Shown here in pieces: positions 37,762 through 47,729 of a stretch of 64,000 nucleotides of DNA (positions within the stretch are counted from its first letter, which is position 1; the number at the start of each line of letters is the position of its first letter). The position numbers and the translations under genes were made by a program. A model generated the notes under the pieces. That model worked only from the letters and a program-made list of their open reading frames with translations. It did no database searches and was not told the origin of the DNA. The stretch comes from Tistrella mobilis KA081020-065. Lineage in GTDB: Bacteria > Pseudomonadota > Alphaproteobacteria > Tistrellales > Tistrellaceae. Location of the stretch: assembly GCF_000264455.2 (NCBI RefSeq), contig NC_017956.1, positions 3,826,001 through 3,890,000 of the forward strand, read 5' to 3'.

Positions 37762-38754
37762 ATGGCGAGGATCTTCTCCGGCGCACAGCCGACCGGCAAC
37801 CTGCATCTCGGCAACTATCTGGGCGCCATCCGCAACTGGGTGACGCTGCAGGATAGTTACGAGTCGGTGTTCTGCATCGTCGATCTGCACGCCATCACCG
37901 TCTGGCAGGATCCCAAGGCGCTGATCCGGCAGACCCGCGAACTGACCGCCGCCTATATCGCCGCCGGCATCGACCCGGAGCGCTGCGTGATCTTCAACCA
38001 GTCGGCCGTGACCGCGCATTCGGAACTGGCCTGGCTGTTGAACTGCATGACGCCGATCGGCTGGCTGAACCGGATGACCCAGTTCAAGGAGAAGGCCGGC
38101 AAGGACCGCGAGAAGGCGAGCCTTGGCCTCTATGCCTATCCTGTGCTGATGGCGGCCGACATCCTGGCCTACAAGGCGACCCATGTGCCGGTGGGGGAGG
38201 ACCAGAAGCAGCATCTGGAACTGACCCGCGACATCGCCCAGCGCTTCAACCAGCTTTACGAAAAGGACGTGCTGCCGCTGCCCGAGCCGATGATCCTGGG
38301 GGCGGCAACCCGGGTGATGTCGCTGCGCGACGGCACCAAGAAGATGAGCAAATCCGACCCGTCGGATTATGCACGCATCAACCTGACCGACGACCGCGAC
38401 ACCATCGCCCAGAAGCTGAAGAAGGCCCGGACCGACAGCGAGCCCGGCGTGACCTACGAGCCGGAGCGCCGGCCCGAGGTCGCCAACCTGATCCGGATCT
38501 ATGCCGCGCTGGACGGCCGCACCACCGACCAGGTGGTGGCCGACTATGCCGACGCGCCCTTCACTACGGTGAAGACGCGGCTGACCGACCTTGCGGTCGA
38601 GAAGCTGGGCCCGATCGCCGAGGAGATGAAGCGCCTGATGGCCGATCCGGCCGAGATCGACCGGATCCTGGCCAAGGGGGCCGATCGTGCCCGCGCCATC
38701 GCCGACCCGGTGGTGGCCGAGGTGCGCGAGACGATTGGTCTGTTGCGGCCGTGA
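37762..38754 (+). CDS. trpS: tryptophanyl-tRNA synthetase
   Basis: Class I aminoacyl-tRNA synthetase of 330 aa that charges tRNA-Trp. The HIGH-type motif [11 protein letters not shown] is at residues 12-22 and KMSKS in [10 protein letters not shown] near 194-203. The length matches the bacterial enzyme. In many alphaproteobacteria it follows murJ directly; here murJ lies about 31 kb away on the other strand, so the block has been rearranged. Confidence 0.97.
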
Positions 38755-38902: not shown

Positions 38903-39814
38903 ATGCAGATCTATCTCCCCATCGCCGAGCTGTCGATCGATGCGATCGCGATCCTGCTGATGGGGCTGGGTGTGGGCTTTCTCTCGGGTCTGGTCGGTGT
39001 CGGTGGCGGCTTTCTGATGACGCCGCTGCTGATGTTCGTGGGTGTGCCGCCACCGGTGGCGGTGGCGACCGGGGCCAATCAGGTGGTTGCGGCCTCGGTG
39101 TCGGGCCTGCTGGCCCATTGGCGTCGCGGCACGGTCGATGTCCGGATGGGCGGCGTGCTGCTGATCGGCGGTCTGGCAGGATCCGGCGTCGGGATCCTGA
39201 TCTTCCGCTGGCTACAGGCGATCGGCCAGATCGACCTGGTGATCGGCGTCTCCTATGTGCTGTTCCTGGGCGTGATCGGCGTGCTGATGGGCATCGAGTC
39301 CGTCCGCAGCCTGCTGGTCCGCAATCAGCCGGCGAAGAAGCGCCATCAGCACAACTGGATGCACGGGCTGCCCTTCAAGCTGCGCTTCCGGAAGTCCAAA
39401 CTCTACATCTCGGCGCTGCTGCCGCTGGCGCTGGGGGCGGGGGTCGGCGTGCTGACCGCCATTCTGGGCGTCGGCGGCGGCTTCATCATGATCCCGGCGA
39501 TGATCTATATCCTGGGCATGCCGACGCTGGTCGTGGTCGGCACCTCGCTGTTCCAGATTCTGTTCGTGTCGATGAACGTCACGATCATGCACGCGGTCAC
39601 GACCGAGGCGGTGGATCTGGTGCTGGCGGCCATCCTGGTGATCGGCAGCGTGATCGGCGCCCAGGTGGGCTCCAGGCTGACCACGAAGCTGCGCGGCGAG
39701 CATCTGCGCGGCCTGCTTGCGGCCGTGGTGGTGCTGACTGCAATCAAGATCGGTGCCGATCTGGTGATCCGGCCCGACGAGCTGTTCTCGGCCGTGGTCG
39801 TGGGGCCGGGCTGA
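38903..39814 (+). CDS. TauE/SafE-family membrane permease
   Basis: Polytopic membrane protein of 303 aa. It has two related halves, each starting with a glycine-rich motif: GVGFLSGLVGVGGGFLMTPL near residues 24-43 and GVLTAILGVGGGFIMIPAMI near 175-194. This is the TauE/SafE (COG0730) signature; characterised members move sulfite, sulfoacetate or other organosulfur anions. A basic cytoplasmic loop (QPAKKRHQHN) separates the halves. The stop overlaps the start of the next gene (TGATG), so the two are translationally coupled. It probably works with that membrane protein. Confidence 0.92.
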   Translation: MQIYLPIAELSIDAIAILLMGLGVGFLSGLVGVGGGFLMTPLLMFVGVPPPVAVATGANQVVAASVSGLLAHWRRGTVDVRMGGVLLIGGLAGSGVGILIFRWLQAIGQIDLVIGVSYVLFLGVIGVLMGIESVRSLLVRNQPAKKRHQHNWMHGLPFKLRFRKSKLYISALLPLALGAGVGVLTAILGVGGGFIMIPAMIYILGMPTLVVVGTSLFQILFVSMNVTIMHAVTTEAVDLVLAAILVIGSVIGAQVGSRLTTKLRGEHLRGLLAAVVVLTAIKIGADLVIRPDELFSAVVVGPG

Positions 39815-40596
39815 TGGCCGACATGCTGCGCATCGCCAGGCTGCCGGCCCTGTTCGTCTTTCTGCTGACCCTGGCGGCCGCGCTGGTGACGGCGGTGTCG
39901 GGTACCCTGCGCGCCCGGGCGCAGCCGCTGGTGGCCGACCTTTCCAGCCATCTGATCTCCATCACCTCCAGCTTCACCGGCACCGAACTGCTGCTGTTCG
40001 GCGCGACCGAAGGCCCGGGCGAGGTGATCGTGGTGATCCGCGGCCCGGCCGAGACGGTCGACATCCGCCGCAAGGACCGTATCCTCGGCATGTGGATCAA
40101 TGCCCGCACGATCCGCTTCAATCAGGTGCCGGCCTTCTATTGGGTGGGGGCAAGCGCGCCGCTTGAGACCTTCACCAACGACCAGATGCTGGCCCGGCAT
40201 CGCATCGGCCTCACCCGGCTGGACTTCCCCGGCGGCGAGGATGCGGCCCCTGAGGAACGCGCCGTCTTCCGCGACGCCCTGATCCGGAACCGCCAGCAGG
40301 CCGGCCTGTTCGTGCCCGCGGTGCAGCCGATCTCGCGACTGGGGGACCGTTTGTTCCGGGTGACGGTCGCCTTTCCGTCCAATGTCACCACCGGCGGATA
40401 CCGGGCCGAGATTTTTCTGGTGAACGAGGGCCGGGTGGTGGCCGCGCAGACCACGCCCCTGTTCGTGCGCAAGGACGGGCTGGGCGACAACATCGCCCGT
40501 CTGGCCCATGAACAGCCGCTCGGCTACGGCATCGCCGCGGTGCTGATTGCGCTGACCGCCGGCTGGACCGCAGGCTTCGTGTTCCGCCGCTTCTGA
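39814..40596 (+). CDS. Alph_Pro_TM / TIGR02186 family membrane protein
   Basis: Protein of 260 aa with one N-terminal hydrophobic segment (about residues 9-30), a large region of about 200 residues likely outside the cytoplasm, and a C-terminal membrane segment (YGIAAVLIALTAGWTAGFVF) ending in RRF. Recognisable segments are SITSSFTGTELLLFGATEG, VVIRGPAETVDIRRKDRI and MWINARTIRFNQVPAFYW. The family is confined to alphaproteobacteria and has no known biochemical function. Coupling to the TauE/SafE gene (TGATG) suggests an accessory or receptor subunit of that permease, which is inference. The universal stress protein gene follows after 15 bases. Confidence 0.85.
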   Translation: MADMLRIARLPALFVFLLTLAAALVTAVSGTLRARAQPLVADLSSHLISITSSFTGTELLLFGATEGPGEVIVVIRGPAETVDIRRKDRILGMWINARTIRFNQVPAFYWVGASAPLETFTNDQMLARHRIGLTRLDFPGGEDAAPEERAVFRDALIRNRQQAGLFVPAVQPISRLGDRLFRVTVAFPSNVTTGGYRAEIFLVNEGRVVAAQTTPLFVRKDGLGDNIARLAHEQPLGYGIAAVLIALTAGWTAGFVFRRF

Positions 40597-40611: not shown

Positions 40612-41124
40612 ATGGCCGACGAGACTTCGACCCCCGAACCCGCGGCCGTGCCCAAGCCCCGGCCCGCCGTCAAATTCCTGGTCTGCGTCGATGGCAGCGC
40701 CCATAGCCGGGTGGCGGTGCGCTATGCCTGCCGGCGTGCCCGCGCCCGTGGTGGCCGGGTGACCCTGCTGACCGTGATCGAGCCGGCCGAGAACCAGCAC
40801 TGGATGTCGGTCGGCAATCTGATGGCCGAGGAACTGCGCGAGCAGGCCGAGCAGGTGCTGCAGGAGATTGCGGCCGAGGTGAACGCTTTCGCCGGATTGA
40901 TGCCCGAACTGCTGGTCCGCGTCGGCCCGATCGGCGACGAGATCCTGCGCCAGATGCGCGAGGACAAGGATATCGGCATGATCGTGCTGGCCGCCCGCCC
41001 GCCATCGGAAGGGCCGGGCAAGCTGGTGCGCTGGCTGGCAAGCCAGCTGGCGGGGGAGCTGCTGGTGCCGATGACGATCGTCCCCGGCAACCTGTCCGAG
41101 GACGATCTGCTGCGCCTTACCTGA
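40612..41124 (+). CDS. universal stress protein (UspA family)
   Basis: Cytoplasmic single-domain UspA-type protein of 170 aa. The first strand VKFLVCVDGSAHSRVAVRYA (residues ~20-39) gives the adenine-binding Asp, and the C-terminal part has IVLAARPPSEGPGKLVRWLA and VPMTIVPGNL. The usual G-2x-G-9x-G-S/T motif is modified, with acidic and proline residues, so ATP binding is uncertain. AGGAGG precedes the start. It is likely co-transcribed with the two preceding genes. The 3' end overlaps the convergent cyclase gene by 8 bases. Confidence 0.87.
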   Translation: MADETSTPEPAAVPKPRPAVKFLVCVDGSAHSRVAVRYACRRARARGGRVTLLTVIEPAENQHWMSVGNLMAEELREQAEQVLQEIAAEVNAFAGLMPELLVRVGPIGDEILRQMREDKDIGMIVLAARPPSEGPGKLVRWLASQLAGELLVPMTIVPGNLSEDDLLRLT

Positions 41125-42421
41125 CGGCGGCGGCCTCTGCCGGCACATCCACGCCACAATCCTCGCAATCCTCGGGCAGGGTATAGACCTCTTCCTCGGT
41201 GGCGAGCCCGCGCAGATGGAAGGTGCCGAGCGGTTCGAGCCTGCGGCCCATATGCTCGACGATCCGGGCGATGGTCGACGAGATCGCGACCGTGCGGCCC
41301 AGATCCCGGGCCAGAACCTCCAGCCGGCTTGCTTCGTTGACGGCCTGGCCGATGACGGTGAAGTCCAGCCGTTCGGGGGCACCGATATTGCCGTAGAGCA
41401 CTTCGCCCGCATGCAGGCCCAGGCCAAAGGCCAGCGGTTCCTGACCCAGCGCCCGACGGCGGGCGTTCAGCTCCGCCATGCCGCGGACGGCATCGCGGGC
41501 GGCATCCAGCGCCGCGCAGCCGGCGAAGGGGCAGGCCCCTTCGCGCACCGGGGTCGGGAAGACGGCGAGCACGCCGTCGCCGATCAGCTTCATCACCTGG
41601 CCGCCATGGGCGGTGATCGCGCGGTTCATCACCTCGAAATGGTCATTCAGCGTGGCGATCAGCACCTCGGGCGCCACCCGTTCCGACATGGCGGTGAAGC
41701 CGCGCAGGTCCGAGAACCAGATCGCGGCATTCATCCGTTCCACATCGCCGCGCTTGATGGTGCCGGCCAGCACCCGTTCGCCGGCATCATCGCCCAGATA
41801 AGTCTTGAGCAGGGTGCGAACCTGGCCACGCTGGCTGATCACCTCCACCGCCAGCGTCACCATCGGAAGCAGGGACGACACCCGGCGCAGATCGCCCTCG
41901 CTGAAGCCGCCCGGATTGCGGGTGGCGAGCGACAGGGCGTTGGGCGTGCCGTCATGGAAAGCGAGCGGCATCATTGCGTAGTCGGTGAAGCCCTCTTCGT
42001 GCAGATCGGCCAGGATCGGAAAATCGCCGATCTGGGCATTGGGGCCGGTCAGCCGCCGGCGCACGCCGACGCCGTGTTCGGCGACGAGCATGAAGGGGCT
42101 GCGCAGATATGCCTCGGTCAACTCCACCCCGTGGGCGCGACGGATCTCCTCGACCGGCTGGTCGGGTCGCCATTCGATCGACACGCCGCGGAATTGCGGG
42201 TCCAGAAGGCGCAGATGCAGGGTAGCCCGATCGATCGGCACACCTGCTGCCAGCAACCGCTCGGACAGGCCGGCGATCAGCTCTCCCACCGGCAGGCCGG
42301 GACCTTCCTGGGCAAGCCACTCACCGATCGGATCCGGGCCCAGCACCGACGGGACCGCGGCGGCACGGCGCACGGGTGTACGCGGCACTAAGACGTCGTC
42401 CAGGCGTTCGGCTTCCATCAT
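41117..42421 (-). CDS. class III adenylate/guanylate cyclase with N-terminal sensor region
   Basis: Predicted soluble nucleotide cyclase of 434 aa. Residues ~30-210 resemble a GAF-like sensor region (including FTDYAMMPLAFHDG). The catalytic domain begins near 240 with metal-binding Asp in AAIWFSDLRGFTAMSE and GDGVLAVFP, followed by FGLGLHAGEVLYGNIG and DFTVIGQAVNEASRLE. A Cys-rich C-terminal tail (PEDCEDCGVDVP) is odd and could bind metal or respond to redox state. The start at 42421 is chosen for AGGA 9 bases upstream. It lies downstream of soxR on the same strand. ATP versus GTP preference is not determined. Confidence 0.87.
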   Translation of the reverse strand: MMEAERLDDVLVPRTPVRRAAAVPSVLGPDPIGEWLAQEGPGLPVGELIAGLSERLLAAGVPIDRATLHLRLLDPQFRGVSIEWRPDQPVEEIRRAHGVELTEAYLRSPFMLVAEHGVGVRRRLTGPNAQIGDFPILADLHEEGFTDYAMMPLAFHDGTPNALSLATRNPGGFSEGDLRRVSSLLPMVTLAVEVISQRGQVRTLLKTYLGDDAGERVLAGTIKRGDVERMNAAIWFSDLRGFTAMSERVAPEVLIATLNDHFEVMNRAITAHGGQVMKLIGDGVLAVFPTPVREGACPFAGCAALDAARDAVRGMAELNARRRALGQEPLAFGLGLHAGEVLYGNIGAPERLDFTVIGQAVNEASRLEVLARDLGRTVAISSTIARIVEHMGRRLEPLGTFHLRGLATEEEVYTLPEDCEDCGVDVPAEAAAVR

Positions 42422-42548
42422 CGGATCGTCCTGCAGGCGGTGGGGCGGGGCGTGTCGGCACAACGCGCCCACGTTCATATCGTGGCTCGATGTGCCCGCG
42501 TCGAGTGGTAAAGCTCACGCCTGCCCGATAATTGCGGAGGTGTGACTT

Positions 42549-43031
42549 TCACGGGCGCTCCAGAAGCCTGGGGCCTGCCCCCTCACGGCCCAGCGCATCG
42601 CCGGGATTGCGCAGCGGGCAGTCCGCCAGCGACAGGCAGCCGCAGCCGATGCAGCCGTCCAGCTCGTCGCGCAGCCTGGTCAGACGGATGATGCGTGCCT
42701 CCAGCATGGCGCGCCAGCGCGACGACATGTCCTGCCATTCAGCGGCGCTCAGCTTTGCATCGGGCGGAAAGGGGGCGAGCGCCGCACCGATGTCTTCAAG
42801 CGGGATGCCCGCCCGCTGGGCCACTTTGATGATCGCGATCCGGCGCAGCACCGCCGCCGGGAAGCGGCGCTGGTTGCCCGCGCTGCGCATGCTGCGGATC
42901 AGGCCGCGGCTTTCGTAAAAATGCAGGGTCGAGACCGCGACCCCGGCGCGTTTTGCGACCTCCCCCACGGTCAGGATCCGATGGGCATCGATGCGGTCTT
43001 CCGGCTTTGTCGGCATCCTCCGGTTCCCCAT
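42549..43031 (-). CDS. soxR: redox-sensitive MerR-family regulator SoxR
   Basis: Transcription factor of about 160 aa that activates target promoters when its iron-sulfur cluster is oxidised by redox-cycling compounds. The MerR-type [23 protein letters not shown] lies near the N-terminus, then a dimerisation helix. The [2Fe-2S] ligand pattern C-x2-C-x-C-x5-C is seen in [14 protein letters not shown]. The start is 43031, or 43016 (MPTKPED), where GGAGG abuts the ATG. It is divergent from a mexGHI-like operon, with a SoxR box in the shared promoter; no soxS is expected in this group. Confidence 0.94.
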
Positions 43032-43061
43032 TGACCTGAACTTTACTTGAGGTTCTATAGT
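43031..43061 (+). promoter_or_regulatory. SoxR-controlled promoter of the mexGHI-like operon
   Basis: TTGACC (43031-43036), a 19-base spacer and TATAGT (43056-43061). Inside the spacer lies CCTGAACTTTACTTGAGG (43035-43052), which agrees with the SoxR box CCTCAAGTTAACTTGAGG at 15 of 18 positions. A 19-bp spacer with the regulator site between -35 and -10 is the standard design for MerR-family activation by DNA distortion. The -35 touches the soxR start codon, so soxR is probably autoregulated. Confidence 0.85.
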
Positions 43062-43118
43062 CCGGCCGATCCGGTCCGGCAAGCCTGCCGGCCTTCATTC
43101 AGCAACGGGATCGGTTCC

Positions 43119-43538
43119 GTGACAGGGTTTATCGAACGGGCGCTCGACAGCGCCTGGCTCTGGCTGACCGCCAGGGTCTGCCTCGCCGTGGTCTTCGTCG
43201 CCTCGGGCCTTGCCAAACTGGTGGATTTCGAGGGCGGGCTCGCCGAGATGCGGGCGGCCGGGCTGGAACCGGCCATCCTGTTCAATCTGCTGACCGCGGC
43301 CACCCTGCTCGGCGGATCGGCGGCGATTCTGGCTGACAGGCTGGTCTGGCTGGGGGCCGGCGTGCTGGCCGTGTTCCTGGTGGCGACCATCCTGGTGGTC
43401 CACACCTTCTGGTCCAAGACCGGTGCCGAGGCGCAGCTCGCCCTGTTCTTCGCGCTTGAACATGTCTCGGTGGCGGGCGGGCTGATCGCGGCGGCGATCG
43501 CCAGCGATCAACGCCGCCGATTGCGCTGGAGGGGGTGA
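43119..43538 (+). CDS. DoxX-family membrane protein, MexG-like
   Basis: Membrane protein of 139 aa with four hydrophobic segments and the DoxX-type start ARVCLAVVFVASGLAKLVDF. In Pseudomonas, MexG is a DoxX-family protein encoded with the MexHI efflux pump, induced through SoxR and reported to bind phenazine-type molecules; the same order here supports a comparable role. The GTG at 43119 is chosen for the preceding GGGATC and the family-typical N-terminus. The next gene follows after 4 bases. Confidence 0.85.
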   Translation: MTGFIERALDSAWLWLTARVCLAVVFVASGLAKLVDFEGGLAEMRAAGLEPAILFNLLTAATLLGGSAAILADRLVWLGAGVLAVFLVATILVVHTFWSKTGAEAQLALFFALEHVSVAGGLIAAAIASDQRRRLRWRG

Positions 43539-43542
43539 GCCC

Positions 43543-44643
43543 ATGTCCCGCAGTCTGCTTGCAGGGCTTGCAGGGCTTGCAGGGCTTGCAGTGGTGGCTG
43601 CCGCCGGCCTCGCCGGGGCCTGGTTTCTTCTGGCGGAGCCCCGGCCGGCCCCGGCGGCGCCCGCCTGGCCGGCGACGAAGGTGGCATTGGCCACGGCCGA
43701 ACGGGTGACGGTGCCGCGGCGCTTTCAGGGCGTGGGCGAGGTGGAGGCCATCCGACAGGTGCTGGTGGCGGCCGAAACCAGCGGCCGGATCACCGGCATC
43801 GACGTCACCTCGGGCGAAGCGGTCAAGGCCGGTACACTGCTGGTGCAGCTGAACGATGCGGTGGAACGTGCCGAGCTGCAGCAGCAACTGGCCCAGCTGC
43901 GCAATGCCGAGGCCCGTCTTGCCCGCCTGAAGAGGCTGGTCGAGCGTAATGCCGCCTCTCGCGAGCAGCTGGACGATGCCCAGGCGGAGCGTGACGTGAC
44001 GGCGGCGGCCGTCGCACGGACCCGGGCGCTGATCGATCAGAAGGCGATCCGGGCGCCGTTCGACGGGGTTGCCGGCATCCGCCGGGTGCATCCAGGGCAG
44101 TATCTGGAAACCGGCGCGCCGGTGGTGAGCCTGGTCGATACCAGCCTGCTTCGGATCAATTTCGCACTCGACGAGCAGGCCATGCCGGAGTTGAGCCTGG
44201 GGCAGCGGGTAGAGGTTTCGGCCGACGCCTGGCCCGATCAGGTGTTCGTGGCGGAGATCACCGCCATCGACCCGTTGATCGGTGACGCCCGGATGGTCCG
44301 GATCCAGGCGACGCTGCCCGAGCCTGACGGGCGGCTCAAAGCCGGGATGTTCGCCGGCGTGCGGGTGGTCAGACCCTCCGGCCCCCCGGCGCTGGTGGTG
44401 CCCGAGACCGCCATCACCTATACCGCCTATGGCGACAGCCTGTTCGTGACGCGCGCCGATCCGGCACGCGGGCTGGTCGCGACCCGGGTGGCGGTCGAGG
44501 TGGGCGCGCGTTGGGACGGGCGTGCCGAGATCGTCTCCGGGCTCGCCGATGGCGACCGGGTGGTGACCTCGGGCCAGGTGCGGCTGGTGGACGGTATGGC
44601 GGTGGAGCCGGTTGCGCATGACACGCTCGAGGTGCGGCCATGA
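43543..44643 (+). CDS. RND efflux periplasmic adaptor, MexH-like
   Basis: Membrane-fusion protein of 366 aa joining an RND pump to an outer-membrane channel. It has an uncleaved or signal-type N-terminal hydrophobic segment with AGL repeats, a biotinyl-lipoyl half near 60-90 (VLVAAETSGRITGIDVTSGE), a coiled coil (QQQLAQLRNAEARLARLKRL), the second lipoyl half (KAIRAPFDGVAGIRRVHPGQ) and a beta-barrel/MP domain. No lipobox cysteine. The last codons overlap the pump gene by 4 bases (ATGA). No outer-membrane factor gene follows, so a TolC-like partner must be encoded elsewhere. Confidence 0.92.
   Translation: MSRSLLAGLAGLAGLAVVAAAGLAGAWFLLAEPRPAPAAPAWPATKVALATAERVTVPRRFQGVGEVEAIRQVLVAAETSGRITGIDVTSGEAVKAGTLLVQLNDAVERAELQQQLAQLRNAEARLARLKRLVERNAASREQLDDAQAERDVTAAAVARTRALIDQKAIRAPFDGVAGIRRVHPGQYLETGAPVVSLVDTSLLRINFALDEQAMPELSLGQRVEVSADAWPDQVFVAEITAIDPLIGDARMVRIQATLPEPDGRLKAGMFAGVRVVRPSGPPALVVPETAITYTAYGDSLFVTRADPARGLVATRVAVEVGARWDGRAEIVSGLADGDRVVTSGQVRLVDGMAVEPVAHDTLEVRP
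43561..43587 (+). repeat. 9-bp tandem repeat inside the adaptor signal sequence
   Basis: The unit GCAGGGCTT occurs three times in a row, with partial copies on both sides. It encodes repeated Ala-Gly-Leu in the hydrophobic N-terminus of the adaptor. Slippage would change the length of the membrane segment by three residues without breaking the frame. Confidence 0.85.
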
Positions 44644-47600
44644 GCTTCACCGACATCTTCGTCCGCCGCCCGGTGCTGGCGCTGGTGGTCAGCATGTTGA
44701 TCCTGCTGGGCGGCGCGGTCTCGCTCGGTCAGTTGCCGATCCGGCAGTATCCGGCGCTGGAGAGCGCCACGATCACCGTCACCACCGACTATCCCGGAGC
44801 CTCGGCCGAGCTGATGCAGGGCTTCGTCACCCAGCCGATCACTCAGGCGGTCTCGTCGGTGGAGGGCATCGACTATCTCTCCTCGTCCTCCGTGCAAGGG
44901 CGGAGCACGGTGACGATCCGCATGGAGCTGAACCGCGACTCGACCCGGGCGATGACCGAGGTGATGGCCAAGGTCTCGTCGGTCCGCTACCGCCTGCCCG
45001 AAGCGGCCTATGATCCGGTGATCGAACGCTCGGCGGGCGATTCGACCGCCGTTGCCTATGTCGGCTTTGCCAGCGACACCCTGCCGATGCCGGCCCTGAC
45101 CGACTATCTGTCACGGGTGGTGGAGCCGATGTTTTCGGGCATCGATGGTGTCGCCAAGGTCCAGGTCTTCGGTGGGCAGAAGCTGGCCATGCGGCTCTGG
45201 CTCGATCCGGACTGGCTGGCGGCCCGTGGGCTGACGGGGGGCGATGTGGCGGCCGCCCTCAGGTCCAACAATGTCCAGGCTGCCCCCGGCCGGCTGGACG
45301 GGCTCTATGTGCTCTCGGACCTCTCGGTCAATACCGACGTCACCGACGTCGCCGGCTTCCGCGAGATGGTGATCCGCGACGATGCCCGCGGGCTGGTCCG
45401 GTTGGGCGATGTGGCCACGATCGAGCTGGGCGCCGCCTCCACCCAGACCAGTGCGGTGATGGATGGTGAGGCCGCGGTCTTCCTCGGTCTGTTTCCGACG
45501 CCGGCCGGCAACCCGCTGGTGATCGTCGACGGCATCCGCGATCTTCTGCCCGCGATCGGCAAGACCCTGCCACCCGATGTCCGCGTCGATCTCGCCTATG
45601 AAAGTGCGGGCTTCATCCAGGCCTCGATCGACGAGGTGCTGCACACCCTGGTCGAGGCGCTGGTGATCGTGGTGGTGGTGATCTTCCTCTGCCTCGGCTC
45701 GCTGCGCAGCGTGCTGATCCCGGTTGTGACCATCCCGCTGTCGATGCTGGGGGCGGCGGGCCTGATGCTCGCTTTCGGATTCAGTCTGAACCTGCTCACC
45801 CTGCTCGCCATGGTGCTGGCGATCGGGCTTGTGGTCGATGATGCGATCGTGGTGGTCGAGAACGTCCATCGCCATGTCGAGGAAGGGCGCACGCCCTTCG
45901 AGGCAGCGCTGATCGGCGCCCGCGAGGTGGCGGGGCCGGTGGTCGCCATGACGCTGACGCTGGCTGCGGTCTACGCGCCGATCGGCTTGATGGGCGGGCT
46001 GACCGGGGCGTTGTTCCGGGAATTCGCCCTGACGCTGGCCGGATCTGTGGTGGTCTCGGGCGTGGTGGCGCTGACCCTCTCGCCGGTGATGAGTTCGCTG
46101 CTGCTGACGGCGAAGCTTCATGAAAGCCGGATGGCGCGGGTGACGGAGCGGGTTTTCGGCGGGCTGACCCGCAGCTACGGGCATCTGCTCGGCCTGTCGT
46201 TGCGCCATCGCTGGGCAACCGGGCTGGTGGCGCTGGGCGTCTGCATCAGCCTGCCGCTGCTCTACCAGATGCCGGCGCGGGAGCTGGCGCCGGTCGAGGA
46301 TCAGGCCTCGGTCCTGGCGGCGATCAAGTCGCCCCAGCATGCCAATCTCGCTTATGCCGAGCGGTTTGCGGCCCGGTTGGACGAGGTGTTCGCGGCGATG
46401 CCCGAGACGGTCGGCACCTGGATCATCAACGGCACCGACGGGCCGTCTGCAAGCTTCGGCGGCGCCAATCTCTCCCGCTGGGAGGCCCGCAGCCGCACGG
46501 CGTCGGACGTCCAGGCGGGGTTGCAGCAGGCGGTGGCCGAGGTGGAGGGCAGCGCGATCTTCGTGTTCCAGCCGGCGCCGCTGCCCGGCTCCACCGGCGG
46601 TCTGCCGGTGCAGATGGTGCTGCGCACGCCCGAGCCTCATGACGTGCTCTACCGAACCATGGAAGAGATCAAGCAACGGGCGCGGGAGAGCGGGCTGTTC
46701 GTGGTGGTCGACGGCGATCTGGACTATGACCGGCCGGTGGTGCAGGTGGCGGTCGACCGGAACAAGGCGGCGAGCCTGGGCATCGCCATGGCCGATATCG
46801 GCGAGACGCTGGCGGTCCTGGTGGGCGAGAACTACGTCAACCGCTTCGCCATGGCCGGCCGGTCCTATGACGTGATCCCGCAGAGCGAGAGAGCCGGGCG
46901 TCTGACGCCGGACGCCCTCGGCCGCCAGTTCCTGCGCAGCCGCGACGGCACGCTGGTACCGCTTCGGGCGGTCGCGGAGATCTCGATGCGGGTGGAGCCC
47001 AACCGGCTCAGCCAGTTCGACCAGCAGAATGCCGCGACCATCCAGACCATTCCGGCGCCGGGCGTCTCCATGGGGCAGGCGGTCGCGTTTCTCGACGCCG
47101 AGGCCCGGGCCTTGCCGGCCGGATTCAGCCATGACTGGCAGTCGGATTCGCGCCAATACGTTCAGGAAGGGGCGAGCCTCGTCATCGCCTTCCTGGCGGC
47201 GCTGGTGGTGATCTATCTGGTGCTGGCCGCGCAGTATGAGAGCCTGGTCGATCCGCTGATCATCCTGATCACCGTGCCGCTGTCGATCTGCGGGGCATTG
47301 GTGCCGCTGGCGATGGGGGCGGCCACGCTCAACATCTATACCCAGATCGGGCTGGTCACCCTGATCGGGTTGATCGCCAAACACGGCATCCTGATGGTCG
47401 AGTTTGCCAACGAATTGCAGCTGCATGAAGGGCTGGCCCGGCGCGAGGCGATCCGGCGGGCGGCGGAGATCCGGCTCCGGCCGGTGTTGATGACCACGGC
47501 GGCCATGGTCTTCGGCCTGGTGCCGCTGCTCTTTGCCGCAGGGGCCGGGGCTGCAAGCCGCTTCGGCCTTGGGGTGGTGATCGTCTCGGGCATGATGGTC

Positions 47601-47729
47601 GGCACGCTGTTCACCCTGTTCGTGCTGCCGACCGTCTATACCGTGCTCGCCCGCGATCACCGCCCGGGGCATGCAGGAGTGCCACAGGAGGGGATCGTGC
47701 AGAACGGGGCTGCGTCGAAGACGTCTTGA
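44640..47729 (+). CDS. RND multidrug efflux permease, MexI-like
   Basis: Twelve-helix proton-driven pump of 1029 aa. It starts MSFTDIFVRRPVLALVVSML (the first RND helix), and the proton-relay pair DD lies in GLVVDDAIVVVENVHRHVEE near residues 397-416. Two large periplasmic loops are present, as is the fourth-quarter motif GLIAKHGILMVEFANE. The length is standard for HAE-1 pumps. It is translationally coupled to the adaptor gene and controlled by the SoxR promoter upstream of the DoxX gene. Substrates are likely redox-active or aromatic compounds, by analogy with MexGHI. Confidence 0.95.
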   Translation: MSFTDIFVRRPVLALVVSMLILLGGAVSLGQLPIRQYPALESATITVTTDYPGASAELMQGFVTQPITQAVSSVEGIDYLSSSSVQGRSTVTIRMELNRDSTRAMTEVMAKVSSVRYRLPEAAYDPVIERSAGDSTAVAYVGFASDTLPMPALTDYLSRVVEPMFSGIDGVAKVQVFGGQKLAMRLWLDPDWLAARGLTGGDVAAALRSNNVQAAPGRLDGLYVLSDLSVNTDVTDVAGFREMVIRDDARGLVRLGDVATIELGAASTQTSAVMDGEAAVFLGLFPTPAGNPLVIVDGIRDLLPAIGKTLPPDVRVDLAYESAGFIQASIDEVLHTLVEALVIVVVVIFLCLGSLRSVLIPVVTIPLSMLGAAGLMLAFGFSLNLLTLLAMVLAIGLVVDDAIVVVENVHRHVEEGRTPFEAALIGAREVAGPVVAMTLTLAAVYAPIGLMGGLTGALFREFALTLAGSVVVSGVVALTLSPVMSSLLLTAKLHESRMARVTERVFGGLTRSYGHLLGLSLRHRWATGLVALGVCISLPLLYQMPARELAPVEDQASVLAAIKSPQHANLAYAERFAARLDEVFAAMPETVGTWIINGTDGPSASFGGANLSRWEARSRTASDVQAGLQQAVAEVEGSAIFVFQPAPLPGSTGGLPVQMVLRTPEPHDVLYRTMEEIKQRARESGLFVVVDGDLDYDRPVVQVAVDRNKAASLGIAMADIGETLAVLVGENYVNRFAMAGRSYDVIPQSERAGRLTPDALGRQFLRSRDGTLVPLRAVAEISMRVEPNRLSQFDQQNAATIQTIPAPGVSMGQAVAFLDAEARALPAGFSHDWQSDSRQYVQEGASLVIAFLAALVVIYLVLAAQYESLVDPLIILITVPLSICGALVPLAMGAATLNIYTQIGLVTLIGLIAKHGILMVEFANELQLHEGLARREAIRRAAEIRLRPVLMTTAAMVFGLVPLLFAAGAGAASRFGLGVVIVSGMMVGTLFTLFVLPTVYTVLARDHRPGHAGVPQEGIVQNGAASKTS

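Follow-up and report, generated by a model that had tools for sequence, protein, structure and literature searches.

A conserved TauE–Alph_Pro_TM gene pair of alphaproteobacteria as a candidate two-component sulfite exporter

In the window, the 64,000-nucleotide stretch of Tistrella mobilis DNA analysed here, a TauE/SafE (TSUP, PF01925) permease and an Alph_Pro_TM (APT, PF09608) protein are encoded by genes that form one unit, as evident from their shared presence and absence across genomes, the retention of both where they are unlinked, and the natural fusion of an APT helix to TauE. The same three lines of evidence favour a complex of the two proteins, as the earlier note on this DNA had proposed. 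We consider it probable (approximately 0.62) that the pair constitutes a two-component sulfite exporter, with TauE as the channel and APT as a dedicated single-pass subunit that stabilises or tunes it.

The TauE gene (38903..39814) encodes a protein of 303 amino acids, scoring 171.4 bits against the PF01925 cut-off of 32.6, with the alignment covering positions 1–236 of 237 and the Pfam gathering score exceeded. The APT gene (39814..40596) encodes 260 amino acids and scores 262.7 bits against a PF09608 cut-off of 24.5, with the protein falling below the cut-off of the NCBIfam equivalog TIGR02186 (163.6 vs 255.25 bits). The TauE stop was said to overlap the APT start, and this reads exactly so in the sequence, with a TGATG at 39812..39816 in which the TGA (39812–39814) and the ATG (39814–39816) share one base. 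The pair is preceded by the housekeeping gene trpS (37762..38754; TIGR00233, 336.9 bits) and followed by a universal stress protein gene, typically third in the operon (Usp; 40612..41124; PF00582, 61.8 bits), with all four genes on the + strand. A search of the available literature found no mention of PF09608, TIGR02186, or Alph_Pro_TM, in agreement with the description of APT as a family without known function. The adenylate/guanylate cyclase (−), MerR regulator (−), and HlyD and RND efflux genes (+) that lie 3′ of the unit, at 41117–47729, are outside it.

Conservation of this arrangement was assessed in 80 class-wide loci, each a fetched neighbourhood of ~16.7 kb, and in a second set of 80 further named loci, mainly from Azospirillum relatives (L and G numbers denote loci and genomes respectively). 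TauE lies directly upstream of APT on the same strand in 76/80 class-wide and 77/80 named loci, far from the rarity that would have spoken against a pair, and the overlaps of four bases (39 and 44 loci respectively) or one base (22 and 24) are the commonest arrangements. Chance adjacency, considered as an explanation, is ruled out by these same-strand and mostly overlapping neighbours. A Usp homologue directly follows the pair in 47/80 class-wide and 78/80 named loci, and trpS falls within the fetched stretch in 28/80 class-wide loci, frequently next to murJ and nfuA-like genes, its proximity to the pair probably being synteny only. APT is unlinked from TauE in four class-wide loci (L056, L062, L075, and L100), with the partner TauE found elsewhere in all four genomes.

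Several variants of the locus were observed. In two Magnetospirillum-like genomes a DUF2333 gene stands between trpS and APT, in the place of TauE, which is located elsewhere (L056, 6961–7923; L184, 4859–5851), and in five loci two tandem TauE genes precede a single APT (L163, L167, L171, L178, and L043). At L248 (4160–6605; family f184) a CcdA/DsbD-like membrane protein replaces Usp after the pair, with a one-base overlap. Two records (L180 and L196), named as Mycobacterium sp. KBS0706 and Candidatus Marinimicrobia and probably mislabelled or contaminated, also carry alphaproteobacterial versions of the operon.

The pairing of TauE and APT across genomes is far above chance. With the partner TauE clade defined by an E value of at most 1e-60, 96 of 142 alphaproteobacterial genomes carry both families, 45 carry neither, and one carries APT only, giving totals of 97/142 for PF09608 and 96/142 for the TauE clade; in the sole APT-only genome (G061) a divergent TauE adjoins APT. 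Within a sample of the phylum Pseudomonadota, the identical 38 genomes carry both, and neither was detected in any of the 149 non-alphaproteobacterial genomes sampled, so the claim that APT is restricted to the alphaproteobacteria holds in this sample, with sampling beyond Pseudomonadota consisting of 14 control genomes. Neither a genome scan with a single protein nor a scan of viruses returned a match. Even among 80 Sphingomonadaceae genomes, 38 carry both genes and 38 neither, with four carrying TauE and no separate APT hit, one of these lying at a contig edge and two having a fused APT helix. The two genes are thus inherited and lost together. As these genomes are related and not independent, and inheritance of the operon inflates co-occurrence, no probability was placed on it.

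The physical relationship between the proteins is illuminated by the Pelagibacterales. In one genome (G098), the match to the APT profile is limited to its last 37 positions and lies inside the TauE gene, and a follow-up covered 58 genomes of the same order. All 28 genomes of family f98 encode a TauE of ~350–375 amino acids with a tail matching PF09608 positions 191–227, and none of the 28 yields a separate APT with the PF09608 profile. The 28 genomes of the sister family f184 carry an ordinary TauE and a separate full-length APT (one APT being a partial hit). We take three f98 genomes (G410, G425, and G412) to be P. ubique HTCC1062, HIMB5, and HTCC7211, and f98 therefore to be Pelagibacteraceae (SAR11). 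The 25 f98 tails examined score 16.1–26.9 bits with the APT profile, compared with at most 9.1 bits for 710 shuffled tails and at most 4.4 bits for 435 unrelated C-terminal membrane helices. The strict motif YGx10Gx6F is found in 69/81 APT proteins, 1/11,123 control ORFs, and 0/78 ordinary TauE proteins. It also occurs in the extended TauE encoded by G098 and by two genomes from a single sphingomonad genus. This domain fusion points to the APT helix packing on TauE and being the one portion that was worth retaining as the remainder of APT disappeared. The fused SAR11 TauE (L216–L240 and L247) lacks the Ig-like domain of APT, so this domain is not needed in every version of the system, and its loss argues against an obligatory role in gating or loading the permease.

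The AlphaFold model of TauE (pLDDT 79.1) comprises 5 + 5 helices (14–31, 35–45, 50–74, 80–107, and 110–138; 172–188, 191–202, 208–234, 239–260, and 265–288), with GVGGG motifs at residues 32–36 and 189–193 marking an internal five-helix duplication. Alignment of the clade reveals a conserved N-terminus, MxIYLPIAE. The loop formed by residues 139–171 averages 10 K/R and both ends of the protein are uncharged or acidic, placing the N- and C-termini outside; no positive charge is found at the TauE ends, compared with about 2 K/R in APT tails. A sequence search found no relative of TauE among solved structures. The closest fold to the model is that of the undecaprenyl-pyrophosphate phosphatase BacA/UppP (5oon, Z 10.8, RMSD 4.7 over 235 residues, 10% identity), whose two matches (Z 10.8 and 10.3, with the next at 6.5) lie below the level that the search tool considers safe for helical proteins. 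Based on this model, it is possible that TSUP and UppP share a common fold, with TauE giving no evidence of phosphatase function.

APT is divided into a putative signal peptide (~1–36), a periplasmic Ig-like beta sandwich with a helical insert (~42–222), and a C-terminal membrane helix (~235–259), an arrangement seen in its model (pLDDT 80.6). Two membrane anchors had been proposed for this protein, however its hydrophobic N-terminus resembles a cleavable signal peptide; the start of the mature protein is preceded by AxA in 52/75 relatives and by [AVSG]xA in 67/75. The two-anchor topology was therefore rejected, and APT probably has a single anchor. The codons for the C-terminal helix, counted as residues ~236–260 and including the YGx10Gx6F motif, lie at 40519..40593 (+). 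This helix ends FRRF in the window protein and FRR or FRK in the family, which suggests that it runs from outside to inside, a direction that fits the fusion because the C-terminus of TauE is predicted to be outside. No sequence match to APT was found in the PDB at E values up to 10, with a profile search giving one weak unrelated match, and a structure search returned generic Ig-like matches only.

Taken as a mechanism, TauE would form the transport channel, its ten helices arranged as an inverted repeat with both ends periplasmic, and APT, after cleavage of its signal peptide, would be a single-pass accessory subunit bearing an Ig-like periplasmic domain. The C-terminal helix of APT (A-x6-YG-x10-G-x6-F-[RK]), running out to in, may pack against TauE and so stabilise or tune it, as basigin and embigin do for monocarboxylate transporters. 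These proteins are likewise single-pass, with an Ig-like extracytoplasmic domain and a multi-helix transporter partner (MCT2–embigin, 9l0b/9l0c), but have no sequence relation to APT, and the structural match of embigin (Z 6.5, RMSD 7.2) is no better than that of many unrelated Ig domains, making the likeness one of analogy only. Such an exporter would rid the cytoplasm of the toxic sulfite that organosulfur or thiosulfate/persulfide metabolism leaves behind.

The assignment of sulfite as the probable substrate stems from neighbouring genes. The P. ubique order is aprM-aprB-aprA, a gene of 116 amino acids, the fused TauE, a YeiH/SuyZ-like exporter, suyAB-like genes, and xsc, where suyAB and SuyZ designate, in our interpretation, a gene pair of the altronate-dehydratase family and a PF03601 protein that adjoin xsc. 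The fusion loci mostly lie beside aprMBA and suyAB-like/xsc genes, with aprA and suyB-like genes flanking the fused TauE in 19/25 SAR11 loci. Amongst loci with separate genes, L068 has aprMBA after TauE-APT in the same orientation, sat-aprMBA is divergent from the pair in L050, and L060 has the order rhodanese-TauE-APT-Usp-YeiH with a divergent tusA. The unlinked TauE of G043 (L212) similarly has a rhodanese gene upstream and a divergent tusA. Rhodanese lies directly upstream in L048, L049, L060, and L212, and close upstream in L183, and tusA is present in 11/80 class-wide neighbourhoods of ~16.7 kb. At most loci, among them that of the window, trpS and usp are the typical neighbours and the pair adjoins no sulfur gene. 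The apr, suyAB-like, xsc, rhodanese, and tusA neighbours have sulfite in common, and this gene context narrows the substrate, earlier described as unknown, to probably sulfite.

The available part of a 2025 study (PMC12636525) holds that SAR11 aprAB likely removes the sulfite made by suyAB and xsc, and that part makes no mention of an exporter. In C2-sulfonate metabolism, TauE of Cupriavidus has been described as exporting sulfite. C. necator TauE and other TSUP/DUF81 proteins belong to the same Pfam family (PF01925) as the TauE of the pair, and the SAR11 member adjoins xsc, as would be expected of a C2-sulfonate sulfite exporter, however the clade of the pair, unlike C. necator TauE, is alphaproteobacterial and nearly always accompanied by APT or its helix. 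A TauE mutant of Zymomonas has been reported (PMC8631904), the gene concerned (ZCP4_1170) not being placed in the APT-paired clade, and TauE-type genes are controlled by the orphan riboswitch class ykkC 2d (PMC7266159), which is not tied to this clade. A TauE-family homologue has been found to import sulfate (PMC11535334), with both substrate and direction therefore varying within the family, and for this reason sulfite export by TauE–APT is something that we infer.

That importer gives some weight to the suggestion that the same two-part complex carries another small anion, such as sulfate, thiosulfate, a sulfonate, or a non-sulfur acid, possibly inwards. YeiH-type putative sulfate exporters and YeeE/YedE sulfur transporters near some members of the pair are consistent with this, and neither the broad, housekeeping-like distribution of the pair nor its usp partner requires sulfite. 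We nevertheless judge another anion unlikely, as the neighbouring aprBA, suyAB-like, xsc, rhodanese, and tusA genes all point to sulfite. Two-part transport of inorganic sulfur has a precedent in the YeeE–YeeD (TsuA–TsuB) thiosulfate uptake system, with YeeE-family genes adjoining some members, but the YeeE–YeeD permease belongs to a different family from TauE. The partner of YeeE is TusA-like and resides in the cytoplasm, in contrast to a single-pass protein of the periplasm.

The part played by APT may also be read differently. As a chaperone that assists the assembly or stability of TauE but takes no part in the transport cycle, APT would fit a minimal version of the sulfite exporter that overlaps with the reading preferred here. 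Its single-pass Ig-like anatomy, its strong co-dependence with TauE, and the sufficiency of the membrane helix alone in SAR11 make this a real, if less than even, prospect, whilst the beta strands are about as conserved as the helix region (mean entropy 1.84–1.97 bits), which hints at an additional role. Alternatively, APT may work mainly alone in the periplasm, for example with Usp in envelope-stress or redox functions, and have TauE as its neighbour through old gene order. APT and Usp do remain joined where TauE has moved (L056, L075, and L100), the DUF2333 gene replaces TauE in L056 and L184, and the order TrpS-TauE-APT-Usp-Nfu is an ancient synteny. This is highly improbable, however, given that TauE and APT are kept or missing jointly even within the Sphingomonadaceae, that unlinked genomes retain both genes, and that SAR11 retains the APT helix fused to TauE.

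A two-component sulfite exporter would give PF09608, which occurs in some two thirds of the alphaproteobacterial genomes sampled and, as a fused helix, in SAR11, a concrete and testable role. TauE/TSUP/DUF81 systems are described as single proteins; if our reading is true, this large and loosely annotated transporter family can need a dedicated subunit, and a TauE expressed alone could fail. Sulfite export would likewise join the sulfonate chemistry of SAR11, and the most abundant heterotrophs of the ocean would have a previously unrecognised sulfite outlet. That the alphaproteobacterial pair is the first TSUP transporter, here a sulfite exporter, with an obligate accessory subunit, its SAR11 counterpart being a fused eleventh helix encoded between the apr genes, which consume sulfite, and the suy/xsc genes, which release it, is in our estimation an even bet.

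Extended TauE genes are followed by a DUF3429 gene (L208, 2785–3846; L209, 3029–4090; L215, 3605–4663), with a 4-base overlap in L208 and L215, and those of L208 and L209 have DUF6691 and YeeE/YedE-like genes upstream. In L210, DUF3429 follows a TauE without APT and without the YLPIAE N-terminus.
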